NCBI GenBank assembly: GCA_017848855.1
Contig: JAFIHF010000019.1
Location: forward strand, 1-46,968
From: Rhodanobacter denitrificans
Lineage (GTDB): Bacteria; Pseudomonadota; Gammaproteobacteria; Xanthomonadales; Rhodanobacteraceae
DNA length: 46,968 nucleotides
Direction of reading: 5' to 3'
Shown: positions 6,453-45,193 of the stretch, one piece after another
How positions within the stretch are numbered: the stretch's first letter is position 1
How the letters are laid out: the number at the start of each line of letters is the position of its first letter
Notes under the pieces: model-generated
Databases searched by the model: none
Seen by the model: only the letters and a program-made list of their open reading frames with translations
Told to the model about the DNA's origin: nothing
Made by a program: the position numbers and the translations under genes

Positions 6453-6597
6453 TTGCAAGAGCTCTTCTGAAGAGTGCGGCCAGGGATGGCCGCCCGTTTG
6501 ACTCTCGCAATCAGGGATGATTGCAAGAACACATTGAAGTGCGGCCAGGGATGGCCGCCCGTTTGATCTTCGCGATCAGGGATGATCGCAAGAATCA
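6450..6597. repeat. Repeat family C, two tandem copies
   Basis: TGATTGCAAGA or TGATCGCAAGA begins at 6450, 6518 and 6583 (periods 68 and 65). Each unit contains GCGGCCAGGGATGGCCGC, a near-palindrome. Copies on the other strand occur at 13214-13388 and 21638-21698. It fills the space between the convergent genes acr3 and ridA and contains both stop codons. Confidence 0.85.
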
Positions 6598-13213: not shown

Positions 13214-13388
13214 TGTGCGCTCGTCCCTGGGCGCGAAAGTCAAATAGGCGGCCATGCGTTATTTGTGCGCTCATCCTTGATCGCCAGGATCAAGCGGGCA
13301 GCCATCGATGGCTGCACTCTTCAACTTTGTGCGCTCGTCCCTGAGCGCGAAAGTCAAATGGGCGGCCATCCGTGGCCGCACTCTTCAA
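13214..13388. repeat. Repeat family C, three copies
   Basis: Units start near 13215 (cut short after GGCGGCCATGCG), 13264 and 13326. The full ones contain GCAGCCATCGATGGCTGC or GCGGCCATCCGTGGCCGC palindromes followed by ACTCTTCAA. They lie between the IscA-type gene and the rpsF promoter. The middle copy has compensating changes in both palindrome arms, so the fold is kept. Confidence 0.85.
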
Positions 13389-14906: not shown

Positions 14907-14910
14907 GGGC

Positions 14911-15090
14911 GGGACTCGGGACTCGGGACTCGGCAAAAGCCGGGTAAGCCCCCGAAGGGTTTGCTTTTCGGAAAGCGCCGACTGCGGCCGCTGTGCTCCT
15001 CGCTCCGAGTCCCGAGTCCCGAGTCCCGAGTCCCGAGTCCCGAGTCCCGAGTCCCGAGTCCCGAGTCCCGAGTCCCGAGTCCCGAGTCCC
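14911..15090. repeat. Repeat family A, largest heptamer element (3 + 12 units)
   Basis: Three GGGACTC units (14911-14931), a 75-base centre beginning GGCAAAAGC, then twelve uninterrupted GAGTCCC units (15007-15090). The two sides are complementary, so a long hairpin can form. It lies in the 380-base space between rplI and dnaB. The heptamer has no stop codon in any of the six frames, which produces spurious ORFs here. Confidence 0.95.
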
Positions 15091-15094
15091 GGCT

Positions 15095-22682: not shown

Positions 22683-22865
22683 CGTACCGCGAAAAGCCCC
22701 AGCCGATTCCCTGCCGCGCGCGCGTTCCCGCGCCTGCGGCCATCGTCATTATTATTTGAAGGCATCCGCCCGCAGCGCGTGCGCCTGCCGCCGCGCGCGG
22801 TGGACGGCATCACAGCGCTTCGGGCCGGGCGGCTTCGGGGCGAGACAGCAGAGGCACCCGAAGCG

Positions 22866-25832
<2,967 letters not shown>

Positions 25833-33312: not shown

Positions 33313-33316
<4 letters not shown>

Positions 33317-36300
33317 GGGCGGATGTCCTGCGCAAGGAGCGTCGTGCGTTCCGGGTCGAGCACGTCGCAGACCAGCTCGGTCGCGGCGACGAAGGCGCGA
33401 TGGGCGGGGCCGGTGGCGTCGAACAGGTCCAGGCCGCGGCCGAGCAGGGCCGCGTAGCCGGGCGCGTGGTCGCGCTCGCCGGGGTTGAAATCGTCGCCTT
33501 CCCACGCGGCCATCGCCCTGGCGAGGCGATCCTCCGCTTCGCTGGTGGCCCAGGCTTGCGCGGTGCGCGGGAAGAACAGCAGCGGTTGCCGTGCGGCGCA
33601 GAGGCACGCCTCGATCAGGCGGCGCAGGCCGTGGCGCAGTTGCGCGCGGTCCTGCGCCCGCAGGAGGTCCAGCATGCCGACGGCTTGCGCCACCAGCACG
33701 TCGCGGCCTCCCTGTTTTCGCCGCACCTGCTCCAGCAGCATGGCCTGCAGCGGTGGGCCGTCGTCGGCATGGGCCAGTCGCAGGCAGGCCCAGTCGATGT
33801 AGCAGGCCAGCAGGTCTTTCAGGCTGGCCGTGCGTCCGGGGCGGGCGTCGAACCACAGCAGGCCACCGTCGGCGCCGCGGAACACGCGGTCGACCACGCC
33901 GGTCAGGCGCAGGCCGTCGCCGAGGTCCAGGTCGATCGCCTGGGCCTGCGCCTGCGCGACGCCGCCGGCGAACAGCGGCCGCGCCTGCGCGAGCAGCGGC
34001 TGCAGCGCGTCGCGCAGCTGCGCCCAGGTTTGCGCGCCGATCGCGCCGCCGGCGAGCAGGCCCGATTGCGCCAGCCATGCCGGCGGCTCGTCGGGCCATG
34101 CGTCGCGGCCGGCCGCGAGCGCCTCGGTCAGCAGGCGGTGGTCAACCCGCTCGATCTTCTCCAGCTGCGTTTCCAGCGGCTCGCGGTCCGGCCAGCCGCG
34201 CTCGTCCAGCGCCTGCAGGCTGATGCCCTGGCCGCGCAGCAGGGCATCGCGCGCGGGGTCGCGCCAGAAGCGCTGGAGCGCGCCGAGGGGGATTTCGCCG
34301 GCCGCCGCGGTTTCCGCTGCGGCGTCCGGCGTGGCGAGGAAGGGCGGCGTGCCGGCGCCGGCCGTCGCGGCGACGAGGAACGCGGGTTCGTAGGAGAACA
34401 GCCGCGGATCGTGGCGCGGCCGGCCGTCGGCGCCGCGCTCGTAGTAGCGCGCGTCGAACGGCTGCAGCGGATGGCGCACGCACCACGGCCGTTCGCGTTT
34501 TTCGTCGCCGGCGAGGCCGTGCTGCTCGTCGAGGAACTGCAGCAGCTCGGCCAGCGGCGCGGCCGGGTTGCGCGGCTTGCCGTCGCGCACGCCTTCGCCG
34601 AGGTAGCTGATGTGCAGCGTGTCGCGCGCCGCCATCAGCGCTTCCAGGAACAGGTAGCGATCCTCGTTGCGGGTGTCGCGATCGCCGCGGCGCGGCTGGC
34701 TGAGCAGGCGGTTGAGCCCGGCGTCGTGGCCGGGGCGCGGGAACTCGCCCTCGTTCATGCCGAGCAGGCAGACCACGCGGAACGGGATCGAGCGCTGCGG
34801 CACCAGTCCGCAGAAGGTCGCCCCGCCGAGCAGGAAGGCCTGCCGCTCGGGCACGGCGTCGAGCGCGCCGCGCAATGCCTCGCGCACCACGCTCCACGGC
34901 AGCGGCGCGTGCATGCCGGCTTCGGCGGCCTGGCCGGCAAGGCCGGCGGCGAGCCGGCGCAGCGCGTCGAGCGCGTTGCCCTCGGCGTCGTCGCGCGGGT
35001 CGGCGAGGAACAGCGCGTCGAGGCGCTCCAGCAGCCATTCGCTCCACGCGGCCAGCGGCCGCGGCTGGGCGAAGCCGTCGCGGGTGCGACGCAGTTCGCC
35101 GAGCAGGCGGTCGAGCTGGCCGATGGCCTCGGTGGCGCCGCCGGAAACGCCGTCCAGCGGCAGGATGCCGTCCACCAGTTCCACGCCGGCGTTCTGGCCC
35201 GCGATCAGGCCGGCATAGAGGCGGTCGAGCCCGAACTGCCACGAGTTGGCGTCGACGGCGGCGGCGCCGGATGCCGCCTTCATGTCGGCGTCCAGCCCCC
35301 ATGCCACGCGGGCGCGGCGCAGCCATTGCTCCAGCGCGTCGCGGCCGGCGGGGTCGATCGCGCAGCGGCGCGCCACCGCCGGCACGTCGAGGAAATCCAG
35401 CACCTCGCTGACGGTGAAGCGGCTCTCGGCCAGGTCGAGCAGCTGCGCGAACGCGCTCATCAGGGGATGTGCGCGCAGCAGCCCCACGTCGGCCAGGTGC
35501 CACGGAATGTGCAGCGGATCGCTGCGGTACTGCGCCGGCTCGCCGAACACCGCCGCCAGGCAGGGCGCGTAGGCGCCGATGTCCGGCGCCATCACCACGA
35601 TGTCGCGGTGCTGCAGCGTGGGGTCGTCGGCGAGGCAGCGCAGCAGGGTGTTCTTCAGCACCTCCAGCTCGCGCAGCCGGGTGTGGCAGGCGTGCACGCG
35701 CAGGCTGGCGTCGTCGCGCAGCGCGGGCAGCAGCTCGTCGAGCGCGGCGCCGGCCTGCAGCCGTTCGCGCAGCGCTGCGCCGACCAGTTCCGGCTGCAGG
35801 CAGCGGATGCTCGATTGCAGGCGGGCCAGCAAGGAGTCCGTGCCGGGCAGCGGTTCGGCCTCGTCGAGTTCGTCGCGCTCCTCGATCGCGTCGCAGTCGT
35901 CCAGGGTGAGGCAGAAATCCTGCGCGATGCGGCCCAGCGCCACCAGCAGCGGGTGGCCGATCTCGTAGTACAGCGCCTCGGGGTCGTCGGCCTGGCGGAG
36001 CTGGAAGCGGCGGCTGCGCAGGTCCGACCAGTACTCGCGGCAAGGATCGGGAAAGTACAGGTGCACCGGCACGTGCCGCGCGCTGGCGTGCAGCGCCTGC
36101 AGCACGTCGGGCGGCAGGTGGCTGACGCCGAACACGTGCAGCGGCGCGTCGTCGCCGCTGCCGTGCGCGGCCAGCGCATCGAGCAGGGCCGCGCTGCGGC
36201 GGGCGCGGTGCGGACGGTCGATGCCGGCCTGCAACCGGCGCCACAGCGCGGCCTGCCAGTCGCGCGGGGGCGGGCCGGGCTGTTCCCAGGCGAGGATCCA

Positions 36301-36747
36301 GTCGGGGCGGTAGATCAGGTATTGCGTGTACAGCCCGGCCAGGTGCTCGGCGAGCTGGAAGCCGCGACGCGCGGCATCGTCGCCGGCGAGGTAGGCGGCC
36401 ACTTCCGGTGCCTCGAGCGCGGGCAGGGCCTGCAGCAGTCGCCAGCGCAACAGCTCCTGCCGGTATGCGCCGCCGACCAGCGCCTCGTCGCCCAGCACGC
36501 GATGGGCGGTGCGCTCGAACCACTGCCAGGGCAGGATCGTCTCGATGTTGGCGGCAATGCCGCGGGCGCCGCGCCGCGCAAAACGGTCCAGCAACCAGCG
36601 CTGCAGGCCCGGGTGCGCCACCACCACGGTTTGCGCCGCCAGCGGATTGGCCGGGCGCCGGGCTTCCAGTTGCCGTGCCAGCGAGTCGGCCAACCGCTCG
36701 GTGCGGCTGGCGCGGTGGACGATCAATCCGCCCGGTGTTTCCGTCAT
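33313..36747 (-). CDS. recC: Exodeoxyribonuclease V subunit gamma (RecC)
   Basis: A 1144-residue Chi-recognition subunit, near the 1122 of E. coli. It keeps inactive-helicase folds: LQRWLLDRFARR near residue 50, ILPWQWFERTA, VFGVSHLPPDVLQAL, the CLLGMNEGEFPR block and NEDRYLFLEALMAARD. It binds RecB and splits the two DNA strands. The ATG at 36747 begins MTETPGGLIVHRASRTERLA. It is first in the recCBD operon, with a terminator for the upstream gene at 36857. Codon usage is as in its neighbours, with no sign of transfer. Confidence 0.95.
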
Positions 36748-36856
36748 GTGCTGCTGTCCCGATACGCCATCCGCACAGCATACCGAGCGCCGGCTCAGGG
36801 TTTGAGACAGCCGGTGGTGCGGCGGGTCCGCCGGCATCGCGAACAGGGATGCTGGA

Positions 36857-41515: not shown

Positions 41516-44500
41516 ATGAGTTCCCCCGCCAAGCACGTCCCCGCCGGCGCCACCCACCCCGAGACCACGCCGCTGCGCTTCGTCACCGCGGCCAGCCTGT
41601 TCGACGGCCACGATGCGGCGATCAACATCATGCGCCGCATCATCCAGAGCCAAGGCGCGGAGGTGATCCATCTGGGCCACAACCGCTCGGTGGAGGACGT
41701 GGTGCGCGCCGCGCTGCAGGAGGACGCCGACGCGATCGCGCTGTCGAGCTACCAGGGCGGCCACGTCGAGTACTTCAAGTACATGGTGGACATGCTGAAG
41801 GAGAAGGGCGCCGCCCACATCCGCGTGTTCGGCGGCGGCGGCGGCACCATCACGCCGGAAGAGATCCGCGAGCTGCAGGCCTACGGCGTGGAGCGCATCT
41901 ACCACCCCAACGACGGGATGAAGCTCGGCCTCACCGAGATGATCGAGGACGTGATGGGCCGCGCATGCGCGGCCCGGGACTCGGGACTCGGGACTCGGGA
42001 CTCGGCAAAGCTGGCGGCGACGCAGGCCAACATCGACGACGAGATCAGCGTGGGGCGCATGCTGAGCGCGCTTGAGGATGGCGCATTCAGCGAGGCGGAG
42101 TTGGCCATGCTGCGCAAGCAGTGGGCGGGCTCTGCCGGGTCCCGCAAAACACCGGTGCTCGGCCTCACCGGCACCGGCGGCGCGGGCAAGTCCTCGGTGG
42201 TGGACGAACTGCTGCTGCGCTTCCTGCACGCGTTCCCGCAGATGCGCATCGCGGTGCTCGCCATCGATCCCACCCGCCGCCGCTCGGGCGGCGCGCTGCT
42301 GGGCGACCGCATCCGCATGAATGCGCTGCGCAGCCATCGCGTCTACATGCGCTCCATGGCCACGCGCCGCCAGCACGCGGCCACCAACACCGTGCTGCAC
42401 GACTGTATCGACTTCCTCAAGGCGCAGCCCTACGACCTGGTGATCGTGGAAACCGCCGGCATCGGCCAGAGCGATTCGGAGATCGTCGACCTCGTCGATT
42501 TCCCGGTCTACGTGATGACCAGCGACTACGGGGCGGCCAGCCAGCTGGAGAAGATCGACATGATCGACTTCGCCGACCTGGTGGTGCTGAACAAGTTCGA
42601 CCGCCGCGGCGCCGAGGACGCGCTGCGCGACGTGCGCAAGCAGTGGAAGCGCAACCACACCGCGTTCGCCGTGAAGGACGAGGACGTGCCGGTGTATCCC
42701 ACCATCGCCAGCCAGTTCAACGACCCCGGCGTGACCTGGATGTTCGCCAACCTGTGCCGGCTGATGCGGCAGAAGCTGGGACTCGGGACTCGGGACTCGG
42801 GACTCGGCAAGGCGCGCTGCGACTTCCTGCCGTCGGTCGATACTTCGCTCAAGGAACCGCGCGCCACCGTGCTGATCCCCGGCAGCCGCGTGCGCTACCT
42901 CGCGGAGATCGCCGAGCAGGGCCGCGGCATCAACGCCGCCGTCGCCCGCCAGGCCGAGGCGGCGAGCAAGGCGCAGCATTACTACGAATCGCTGAAGGAA
43001 CTCGGCGACGAAGCTCTGCCGCGCCCGCTGGAGTTGTACGACAGCGCCGCTTTGCATCCCTCTCCCTCCGGGAGAGGGACCGAGGGTGAGGGTTCGGCCC
43101 TTGCCACAAACCCCACGCAAGCCCCGAACCCTCACCCCCAGCCCCTCTCCCGAGGGGAGAGGGGAGAAGTCGTCGACCGCACCCTGCTCCTCCTCCGCCA
43201 GCGCTACAACGCCGCGCTGAAGGAACTCAGCCACGAATCCATCCACCTGCTGCGCGACTGGCCCAAGCTGCGCGAGTCGGTGACCAAGGACGTCAACGAG
43301 TACAAGGTGCGCGACAAGACGATCCGCGTGGAGAACTACCGCGAGTCGCTCAGCCACCAGAAGATCCCCAAGGTGGCGCCGCCCAAGACCGAAAGCTGGG
43401 GCGACCAGCTGCTGTTCCTCGGCAAGGAAAACCTGCCCGGCCACTACCCCTACACCGGCGGCGTGTACCCGTACCGCCGCAGCGGCGAGGACCCCACCCG
43501 CATGTTCGCGGGCGAGGGCACGCCCGAGCGCACCAATCGCCGCTTCCATTACTTGAGCCAGGGCGGCGCAGCCACGCGTCTGTCCACCGCGTTCGACTCG
43601 GTGACGCTGTACGGCGAAGACCCGGCGCCGCGCCCGGACATCTACGGCAAGATCGGCAACTCCGGCGTCAACATCGCCACGCTGGACGACATGAAGAAGC
43701 TGTACTCCGGCTTCGACCTCAGCGCGCCCACCAGCTCGGTGTCCATGACCATCAACGGCCCCGCGCCGATCATCCTCGCGATGTTCATGAACACCGCGAT
43801 CGACCAGAACGTGGAGAAGTACCTCAAGCAGGATTCCGCGCGCTGGGCCGAGGCGGAAAAGAAGATCGCCGCGATGTATCCCAACGGCCGCCCGCAGTAC
43901 GCCGGCGAGCTGCCCAAGGGCAACGAAGGCCTCGGCCTCGGCCTGCTCGGCGTCACCGGCGACCAGCTGGTGGACGCGGAGACCTACGCGAAGATCAAGG
44001 CGGAGACGCTATCCAGCGTGCGCGGCACCGTGCAGGCCGACATCCTCAAGGAAGACCAGGCGCAGAACACCTGCATCTTCTCCACCGAATTCGCCCTGCG
44101 CATGATGGGCGACATCCAGCAGTACTTCGTGGAGCACAAGGTTCGCAACTTCTACTCGGTGTCCATCTCCGGCTACCACATCGCCGAAGCCGGCGCGAAC
44201 CCGATCAGCCAGCTCGCCTTCACGCTGTCGAACGGCTTCACCATCGTGGAGTACTACCTCGCGCGCGGCATGCACATCGACGACTTCGCGCCGAACCTGT
44301 CGTTCTTCTTCTCCAACGGCATGGACCCGGAATACACCGTGATCGGCCGCGTCGCCCGCCGCATCTGGGCCCGCGCCATGCGCGAGCGCTACGGCGCCAG
44401 CCCGCGCAGCCAGATGATGAAGTACCACATCCAGACCAGCGGCCGCAGCCTGCACGCGCAGGAAATCCAGTTCAACGACATCCGCACCACGCTGCAGGCG

Positions 44501-45193
44501 CTGTACGCCCTGTTCGACAACTGCAACAGCCTGCACACCAACGCCTACGACGAAGCCATCACCACGCCCACCGAAGAAAGCGTGCGCCGCGCCGTGGCGA
44601 TCCAGATGATCATCAACAAGGAGCTGGGCCTCAACTTCAACGAGAACCCCTGGCAAGGCAGCTACGTGGTCGAGGAACTGACGGATCTCGTGGAAGAAGC
44701 CGTGTACAAGGAGTTCGAGGCGATCAGCGAACGCGGCGGCGTGCTCGGCGCCATGGATACCATGTACCAGCGCGGCAAGATCCAGGAAGAGAGCCTGTAC
44801 TACGAACACAAGAAGCACGACGGCTCGCTGCCGCTGATCGGTGTCAACACCTTCCTGCCCAAGGACCACGGCGGCGAGATCGCCACCGAGATCGAGCTGA
44901 TCCGCTCCACCGAGGAAGAGAAGGCCCAGCAGATCGCGAACGTGCAGGCGTTCCAGAAGGCTCGCAACCCGCTGGCGCCGGTGGGCGAAACCTCGTACGC
45001 GCACGGCACCGACTCCACCGATGCGCCGGTGCCGCAGGTCCACGACAACCACGGCCTGGCCTACCTGCAGCACGCCGCCCGCGACCGCAAGAACGTCTTC
45101 GCCGCGCTGATGGAAGCAGTGAAGACCCACTCGCTCGGCCAGATCAGCCACGCGCTGTACGACGTGGGCGGCGAGTACCGCCGCAACATGTAA
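41516..45193 (+). CDS. icmF: Fused acyl-CoA mutase IcmF with three repeat-derived insertions
   Basis: A 1225-residue B12-dependent mutase, against about 1090 for known IcmF proteins. The order is B12-binding domain (DGHDAA near residues 30-35), G-protein chaperone domain (Walker [10 protein letters not shown] near residue 221, VLNKFD), helical linker, then the TIM-barrel mutase domain ([35 protein letters not shown]). It isomerises isobutyryl-CoA/butyryl-CoA, and the G domain guards cofactor loading. Three stretches are repeat-encoded: residues about 154-165, 421-432 and 515-550 (41976, 42778 and 43058). All lie at domain borders or in the linker. GGAG precedes the ATG. Whether the substrate is isobutyryl- or methylmalonyl-CoA is not settled by sequence. 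Confidence 0.94.
41976..42010 (+). repeat. Heptamer array inside icmF, first site
   Basis: Four GGGACTC units (41976-42003) followed by GGCAAAG, read in frame as [12 protein letters not shown] between the B12-binding and G domains. This is the left half of a family A element. Confidence 0.95.
42778..42811 (+). repeat. Heptamer array inside icmF, second site
   Basis: Four GGGACTC units (42778-42805) followed by GGCAAGG, read in frame as [11 protein letters not shown] after the G domain. Confidence 0.95.
43058..43164. repeat. Family B paired-hairpin element inside icmF
   Basis: CCCTCTCCC/GGGAGAGGG, GAGGGTGAGGGTTCGG, a spacer, CCGAACCCTCACCCCCAG and CCCCTCTCCC-GA-GGGGAGAGGGG. It is read in frame as a Pro/Ser/Gly/Arg-rich segment. 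The right half is identical to that of the ileS copy. Confidence 0.95.

Follow-up and report, generated by a model that had tools for sequence, protein, structure and literature searches.

The window analysed here is a stretch of 46,968 nucleotides from a Rhodanobacter denitrificans assembly (contig JAFIHF010000019.1, positions 1 to 46,968), and the gene at issue is icmF, whose product scores 1657 bits against the NCBIfam equivalog NF045497, fused isobutyryl-CoA mutase IcmF (cut-off 1500). Pfam recognises a B12-binding domain at residues 21-124, a MeaB domain at 211-378 and an MM_CoA_mutase domain. The gene holds three repeat elements, two arrays of the heptamer GGGACTC and one paired hairpin of a type that we call family B, which consists of CCCTCTCCC..GGGAGAGGG twice, inverted (Table 1). 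Their coordinates, Tandem Repeats Finder (TRF) and the hairpin arms confirm an initial annotation of this DNA, which had placed two heptamer arrays and one paired hairpin in frame at these very points; all three are open in the frame of the gene. The heptamer arrays are in fact open in all six frames and the family B element in four of the six, and heptamer arrays suit coding DNA, since their 7-nt period yields a single open heptapeptide in each frame of a strand.

Table 1. Features of icmF and of other host genes that carry repeat inserts. Positions are those of the window unless a separately fetched stretch (L285, L289) is named; linker names are those of the orthologue comparison.
Feature	Place in the protein	Position	Strand	Basis
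icmF, fused isobutyryl-CoA mutase / MeaB-type GTPase	1225 aa	41516..45193	+	NCBIfam NF045497, Pfam
Heptamer array (GGGACTC)4.4, linker L1	residues 154-164, B12-binding/G domain junction	41975..42005	+	TRF, 100% matches
Linker L6, degenerate GGGTCCC trace only	residues 199-212, directly ahead of the P-loop	42110..42151	+	orthologue comparison
Heptamer array (GGGACTC)4.3, linker L2	residues 421-431, directly past the G domain	42778..42807	+	TRF, 100% matches; peptide LGTRDSGLG
Paired hairpin, family B, linker L3	residues 515-550	43058..43163	+	47-nt arms, 85% complementary
Linker L5, 39-residue non-repeat form	residues 1147-1185, near the C terminus	44954..45070	+	orthologue comparison
IleRS gene, family B in frame	about residues 323-366	22779..25829 (BLAST core 23817-23857)	+	Pfam, BLAST
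Lhr-like helicase, family B in frame	residues 410-444, between WH_Lhr (ends 377) and DEAD_assoc (starts 481)	L285 1230-1333		Pfam
Dihydrolipoyl dehydrogenase (Lpd), family B in frame	residues 105-139, between lipoyl (ends 96) and Pyr_redox (starts 158)	L289 1164-1267		Pfam

The best solved relative of the host protein is the Cupriavidus IcmF 4XC6 (1113 aa), which it exceeds by 112 residues; part of this difference is a segment of the mutase region that measures 52-62 residues in all 158 IcmF sequences compared below. Relative to L146 (1177 aa), an insert-free sequence of the same genus, the excess is 48 residues and falls entirely at four linkers (L1 +5, L6 +2, L2 +9, L3 +32), so that the figure of about 130 residues beyond known IcmF given by the initial annotation is too high on either count. 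Placed on the solved structure, the L2 array aligns at about residues 433-446 of 4XC6, at the point where the structure paper splits the cobalamin-binding and G domains (22-442) from the linker and substrate domain (443-1093) (PMC10481361). An AlphaFold model of the host protein is weak (mean predicted local distance difference test score, pLDDT, 67; predicted template modelling score 0.46) and was used only for the low-confidence stretch at L3, where pLDDT stays below 50 at model residues 501-533, which are protein residues 518-550.

IcmF was found in 142 of 147 genomes from the family, a part of which were fetched, and 80 further named loci were added from Rhodanobacter, Dyella, Luteimonas, Pseudoxanthomonas, Xanthomonas, Lysobacter, Arenimonas, Dokdonella and some other Gammaproteobacteria. 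The resulting 169 loci (L024-L192), less three partial and nine duplicate ones, gave 158 IcmF sequences including that of the host, and in those kept the frame is open across the aligned stretch. The N terminus and a few minor sites apart, most of the variation in length falls at five linkers (host residues 151-173 for L1, 204-211 for L6, 421-435 for L2, 511-556 for L3 and 1152-1179 for L5), with ranges of 16-51 residues at L1, 24-111 at L2 and 27-131 at L3. We find recognised inserts in 80 of the 158 sequences, restricted to these linkers, L5 being repeat-filled in 13; the number of filled sites per protein is zero in 78, one in 38, two in 23, three in 13, four in three and five in three. The host protein is one of the 13 with three sites filled, and it is not the exception it was first taken for, as 18 of the other 157 sequences have at least three. 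Many linkers in other homologues are as long as those of the host yet hold other repeat families rather than no repeat at all, and the same-genus L146 and L147 are short and empty. In L052, L071, L072, L073, L077 and L091 (Arenimonas, Dokdonella and relatives), L3 carries an extension of 73-82 residues with similar GERR..RRK-like motifs that is apparently not a repeat.

About seven repeat families could be separated by DNA signature, with letters assigned in this analysis, so the claim that unrelated intergenic repeats have settled in the linkers of one protein holds more widely than first stated. Family H comprises the heptamers and family B the CCCTCTCCC pair; family C consists of ATTCCCGC..GCGGGAAT pairs (peptide VIPAKAGIQ..LDSGLRRND), family D of CTGAGCGTAGC..GAAGTCGAAG (peptide AERSPQGEVEA), family E of GGGGTCAGAGTCATTTT pairs, family F of repetitive extragenic palindromes (REPs) in paired form (REPINs) tagged with GTAG/GTGG, family G of CCCTCCCCTTC pairs, and family I is a single copy of CATCCTGAGCGCAGCGAAGG type; families B and G may be related. 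The classifier is a list of hand-made signatures and misses some inserts, e.g., those at L3 of L034 and L065, which by eye are family C-like. In BLAST comparisons linker DNA matches the DNA of other linkers in other genomes, and a single family is found at different linkers in different genomes, as with family B, which is often present at L3 but also at L2 (L186 and L190) and, on the opposite strand, at L5 (L110); the families are therefore mobile and do not represent homologous filling. In L162 and L190 a composite linker of 125-131 residues is made up of several families, and L3 of L025 is a hybrid with a family B left half followed by a family D right half. Perfect inverted repeats of at least 9 nt occur in 92 of 169 long linkers, compared with 36 of 507 length-matched random windows drawn from one part of the same genes.

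The two families present in host icmF are, as had been proposed, dispersed repeats of its genome (3.49 Mb in 73 contigs). A triple GGGACTC heptamer has 207 matches there (108 + 99) and its reversed control none, and the family B hairpin gives 83 BLAST matches, with both strands of the palindrome counted, so neither kind of element in icmF is due to chance. The 51 host heptamer arrays listed are a part of all those in the genome, and four units is their commonest size; the family B survey covers 47 places in fetched stretches and the window, some of them short partial matches. Elsewhere, the family F REPIN of L027 has 66 matches in its own genome, the L190 insert has 61, nearly all of them to its B-type part, and a loose G-tract pattern was matched in 16 of the 16 carriers asked. 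Families H, B and F are thus dispersed in the carriers tested; for family E the only support is that it recurs at L1 and L2 in other orthologues. A GTAG-tagged paired palindrome is confined to family F, the L2 insert of L027 containing GTAGGAGCGCACC and, downstream, its imperfect inverse GGTGGGCTCCTAC; families B and H show no GTAG or CGTC tag, and the ends of the host element at L3 (CCCTCTCCC..GGGAGAGGG) are likewise untagged. Two Y1_Tnp matches were found in the host, one interrupted by a stop and the other, L284, intact and similar to a REP-associated tyrosine transposase (RAYT); its Y1-type frame is surrounded by repeats of GTCGGGCTTCAGCCCGAC type, and a GTAGGAGCGCACC REPIN (L284 3193-3268) lies at a distance of over 1 kb. 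No mobiliser was found for families B, C, D and H in this search, which was limited to Y1_Tnp in the host. The window itself also contains a heptamer array of unusual length (12.4 units, 15005-15091) that faces a 3-unit array at 14910-14931, as well as 64-65-bp near-tandem duplicates at 6473-6594 and 13262-13388, in opposite orientations, that apparently form one further repeat family.

We then compared occupancy with a FastTree gene tree built on 999 core columns, counting Fitch changes against labels shuffled 200 times. At L2, L3 and L5 family occupancy hardly follows the tree: at L3, family B requires 25 changes for 26 carriers (shuffled mean 24.4), family C 10 for 10 and family D 11 for 12, and at L2 family F requires 8 for 8 and family E 10 for 11 (shuffled 10.8). 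Genes with nearly identical cores differ in their inserts, with L028 (family B) and L032 (family F) at L3 being 99.4% identical, L043 (C) and L049 (B) 98.4%, and L027, filled with F, C and D, 98.6% identical to the empty L146. Core dN/dS, the ratio of nonsynonymous to synonymous substitution rates obtained by a simple counting method, is 0.06-0.12 in seven pairs, and hence the enzyme is kept under purifying selection. Next to L3, divergence between L028 and L032 is not raised (3.0% and 3.1%, gene range 1.0-5.6%), and it is intermediate for L035/L045 and L145/L161.

The heptamers have a geometry of their own. They lie on the plus strand at L1 in 22 orthologues (of 23 pattern hits, L084 belongs to family E and is not counted), where one minus hit, in L082, overlaps its own plus array; at L6 an inverted array is present in 18 orthologues, on the minus strand in all 18; at L2 they are plus in 15, with one true minus copy in L162; and at L3 there is a single minus copy, in L182, the remaining pattern hits being family B. 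The letters of the L1(+) and L6(-) arrays agree within a genome (distance 0.31 vs 0.63 when permuted, 0 of 10,000, n = 16; the statistic ignores kinship), and their inner gaps in icmF measure 125-153 bp (16 measured). Among host arrays in the fetched stretches with neighbours closer than 250 bp, 16 pairs are convergent, none divergent and three in the same direction, and the convergent pairs have inner gaps of 34-101 bp. Because the DNA between L1 and L6 encodes a conserved segment, the two arrays did not come in together as a single block: they arrived in succession, or one seeded the other. The proposal that the three host inserts are independent is likely to be right, yet it is unproven for the two heptamer arrays, because other genera too have heptamers there.

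Inserts of this kind are also found in five other host enzymes (IleRS, PurL, PurM, Lpd and an Lhr-like helicase), in three cases between Pfam domains, which again argues against IcmF being exceptional. For family B, four of the 47 host places pass a test that requires coding sequence on both flanks, namely those in IcmF, IleRS, the Lhr-like helicase and the lipoyl-domain dihydrolipoyl dehydrogenase. For the heptamers, 10 candidate open reading frames (ORFs) of the fetched stretches were given to Pfam, and at least four of the 51 listed arrays lie inside recognised genes, two in icmF, one in purL (L015 1958-1985) and one in purM (L018 1994-2021); a further array stands at the N-terminal end of a frame for enzyme I of the phosphotransferase system, before its first domain, and may precede the true start. 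Six of these eight genic copies, four of each family, are located between domains: the PurL array, at about residue 599, separates domains that end at 588 and start at 664, while the PurM array is inside the AIRS_C domain. The IleRS of relatives varies in length at two sites, and at residues 323-366 14 of 30 sequences are at least 8 residues above the minimum; several carry family B in another frame (PLPLGEG) and five same-genus sequences are short. In PurL, an insert at residues 586-601 is present in 4 of 30 sequences, the host one included. IleRS and PurL were compared because the host copy holds a repeat, and they are not neutral control proteins. RecC, considered as an unbiased control with 29 usable sequences, was set aside, its same-genus matches being 37-40% identical and most matches from a second genus, g19, 71-81%. 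The host recC (window 33313-36837, minus strand) shows 71-81% identity to eight listed g19 genomes and 37-40% to its own genus, and on this sequence comparison it is probably foreign, a horizontal replacement.

We consider it likely that the inserts are tolerated selfish insertions with turnover and that the linkers of IcmF are refuges for dispersed repeats in the Lysobacterales. Short dispersed repeats (G-tract heptamer arrays, REPIN-like paired hairpins and other palindromes) would arrive repeatedly, and copies that fall in folded parts or shift the frame would be purged by selection; in-frame copies at a few joints would persist, translated as disordered spacers, until they are lost or swapped for another family. 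Openness in six of six frames for heptamers and four of six for family B should ease survival in coding DNA. Translation and neutrality of the inserts are presumed; movement of the GTAG-tagged REPINs would be due to a RAYT transposase and that of the other families perhaps to slippage and template switching. The suggestion that the insertion sites are those where an insert is tolerated finds support. Several observations weigh against selfish turnover as a whole. The 78 sequences without a recognised insert are one, and long linkers remain unclassified in 7 cases at L1, 10 at L6, 17 at L2 and 34 at L3. Heptamers keep tree signal at L1 (17 changes for 22 carriers, shuffled minimum 18) and at L6 (14 for 18, shuffled minimum 15), their strand is fixed per linker, which is unexpected under random insertion, and the near pairs L154/L156 and L063/L188 share inserts. 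Dispersal is uneven: the D part of the L190 insert has only three genome matches, one of which is L5 of the same gene, its C part is absent among the own-genome matches listed, family E of L156 is single-copy in its own genome, and in G041, whose L2 carries a GGGAACG array, matches to the G-tract pattern barely exceed the backward control (5+14 vs 4+10). The intact RAYT-like gene L284 of the host is not flanked by family B or heptamers. Finally, divergence beside L3 is clearly raised in three of six pairs, reaching the gene maximum on both sides in L027/L146 (6.8% and 6.7%) and being raised on one side in L043/L049 (9.7%) and L044/L180 (8.3%), and local recombination or weak constraint may therefore contribute.

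The last point also bears on targeted exchange, in which the linkers are hot spots at the DNA level and a resident palindrome attracts its replacement by template switching or hairpin-directed integration. This is possible though unlikely. Raised divergence in some of the six pairs would fit it, as would the half-B/half-D linker of L025 and the composite linkers of L162 and L190; the B, C and D inserts at L3 begin after the same Leu-His in five of the six filled sequences shown (host, L024, L025, L026 and L030, not L034), although this common start may merely mark the end of a folded part. The agreement of letters between L1 and L6, and the likeness of the pair to convergent intergenic ones, point in the same direction, but the letter matching ignores kinship and the inner gaps in icmF are wider than those between host arrays, while same-genus sites that are empty (L146, L147) as opposed to filled (host, L024, L026, L030) imply gain or loss as well. 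A more specific version, that the five linkers are docking sites where different palindromic and G-tract repeats replace one another through a host process common to all (template switching driven by hairpins or G-quadruplexes) and not through family transposases, strikes us as distinctly doubtful; the hints of DNA-level exchange are the L025 hybrid, the common Leu-His start and the concerted L1/L6 pair. If it were true, the convergent L1/L6 pair would be one unit evolving in concert, and a single enzyme family would record a general, transposase-free exchange of repeats.

Selfish turnover at tolerated sites also has to be set against usefulness. IcmF works through large domain motions (PMC10481361), and longer or more flexible joints might tune them, e.g., in cofactor loading by the G domain, with spacers of any sequence favoured; free spacer sequence at a fixed position agrees with this, whereas the many sequences without a recognised insert, same-genus ones among them, the wide variation of length in one genus and the presence of the same elements in single linkers of other enzymes make it improbable. 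Old inheritance, with a single set of inserts in the ancestor and separate decay along each lineage, would account for L1/L6 heptamers with tree signal across genera. It is very improbable given different families at one site in near-identical genes, the match of families H, B and F to repeats dispersed in their own genomes and the scatter of most L2, L3 and L5 inserts like shuffled labels; a single ancestral insertion was rejected on the same grounds. Repeats are a known source of misassembly, and the host assembly is in 73 contigs. Even so, there is practically no chance that the inserts are an assembly artefact or that the gene is a pseudogene, and both were rejected, as filled linkers also occur in single-contig genomes (e.g., G024, carrying L148, and G069, carrying L026), the frame is open across the aligned stretch in the 158 sequences kept and core dN/dS is low.

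Taken as a refuge for selfish repeats, IcmF offers a natural replicated experiment on how such repeats add stretches to conserved proteins, with empty and filled sites, constant positions and a mixture of families in more than 100 genomes. Existing genomes and simple enzymology could be used to measure how often inserts are gained, lost or replaced, how the frame matters and what a random disordered spacer costs. It also carries a warning for annotation, in that such repeat peptides in proteins of these bacteria are likely to be translated repeats, not domains.

No work on repeat turnover in IcmF linkers was recognised in the literature searched, which lay mostly outside subscription journals and supplements. 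In-frame palindromic inserts are already known from the Rickettsia palindromic elements (RPEs) and intragenic REPs, and the heptamer type is known from Xanthomonas. The likeness to RPEs, drawn in the initial annotation, is apt: these too are short palindromic repeats in frame in metabolic genes and predicted to be compatible with the fold (Ogata 2000, 2002, via PMC10969869). Family B, an in-frame palindrome in a conserved gene, may accordingly be described by analogy as RPE-like in behaviour, and we do not call it an RPE; the hosts differ, the nearest named relatives here being Rhodanobacter and Dyella, and about seven families, tandem heptamers included, keep returning to the same linkers of one enzyme throughout an order, while close relatives differ in the insert at a given linker. 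GTAG/CGTC REPs occur singly or as dimers in known proteins, sometimes two per ORF (Di Nocera 2013, PMC3733652), and that work suggests that intragenic copies are neutral in flexible linkers or loops, mentions tRNA synthetases of X. oryzae and hypothesises mobilisation of GTAG REPs by RAYT transposases; its main text names no mutase, and its available parts describe no orthologue-by-orthologue turnover at fixed sites. The GGGNATC G-quadruplex heptamers of Xanthomonas are 7-nt G-tract units, preferably four, mostly intergenic, with 70 and 75 convergent pairs counted in two strains (Rehm 2015, PMC4692102). The host GGGACTC arrays match this type in unit, four-unit preference, convergent pairing and mostly intergenic location; they differ in that the unit is GGGACTC, that arrays lie in frame in conserved enzymes (intragenic copies there are 7-11%) and that coding sequence lies between the two arrays of the L1/L6 pair. 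Enterobacterial RU/ERIC elements read as protein are likewise small mobile repeats with open frames inside genes, in a putative exported and a putative membrane protein (Delihas 2007, PMC2759123), whereas here the same joints of a conserved enzyme are refilled, and the inverted repeats inside protein-coding genes of Nematomorpha are mitochondrial (PMC6649704). What is new here, relative to all of these, is that several families refill the same linkers of a single enzyme, repeatedly and fast, throughout an order.

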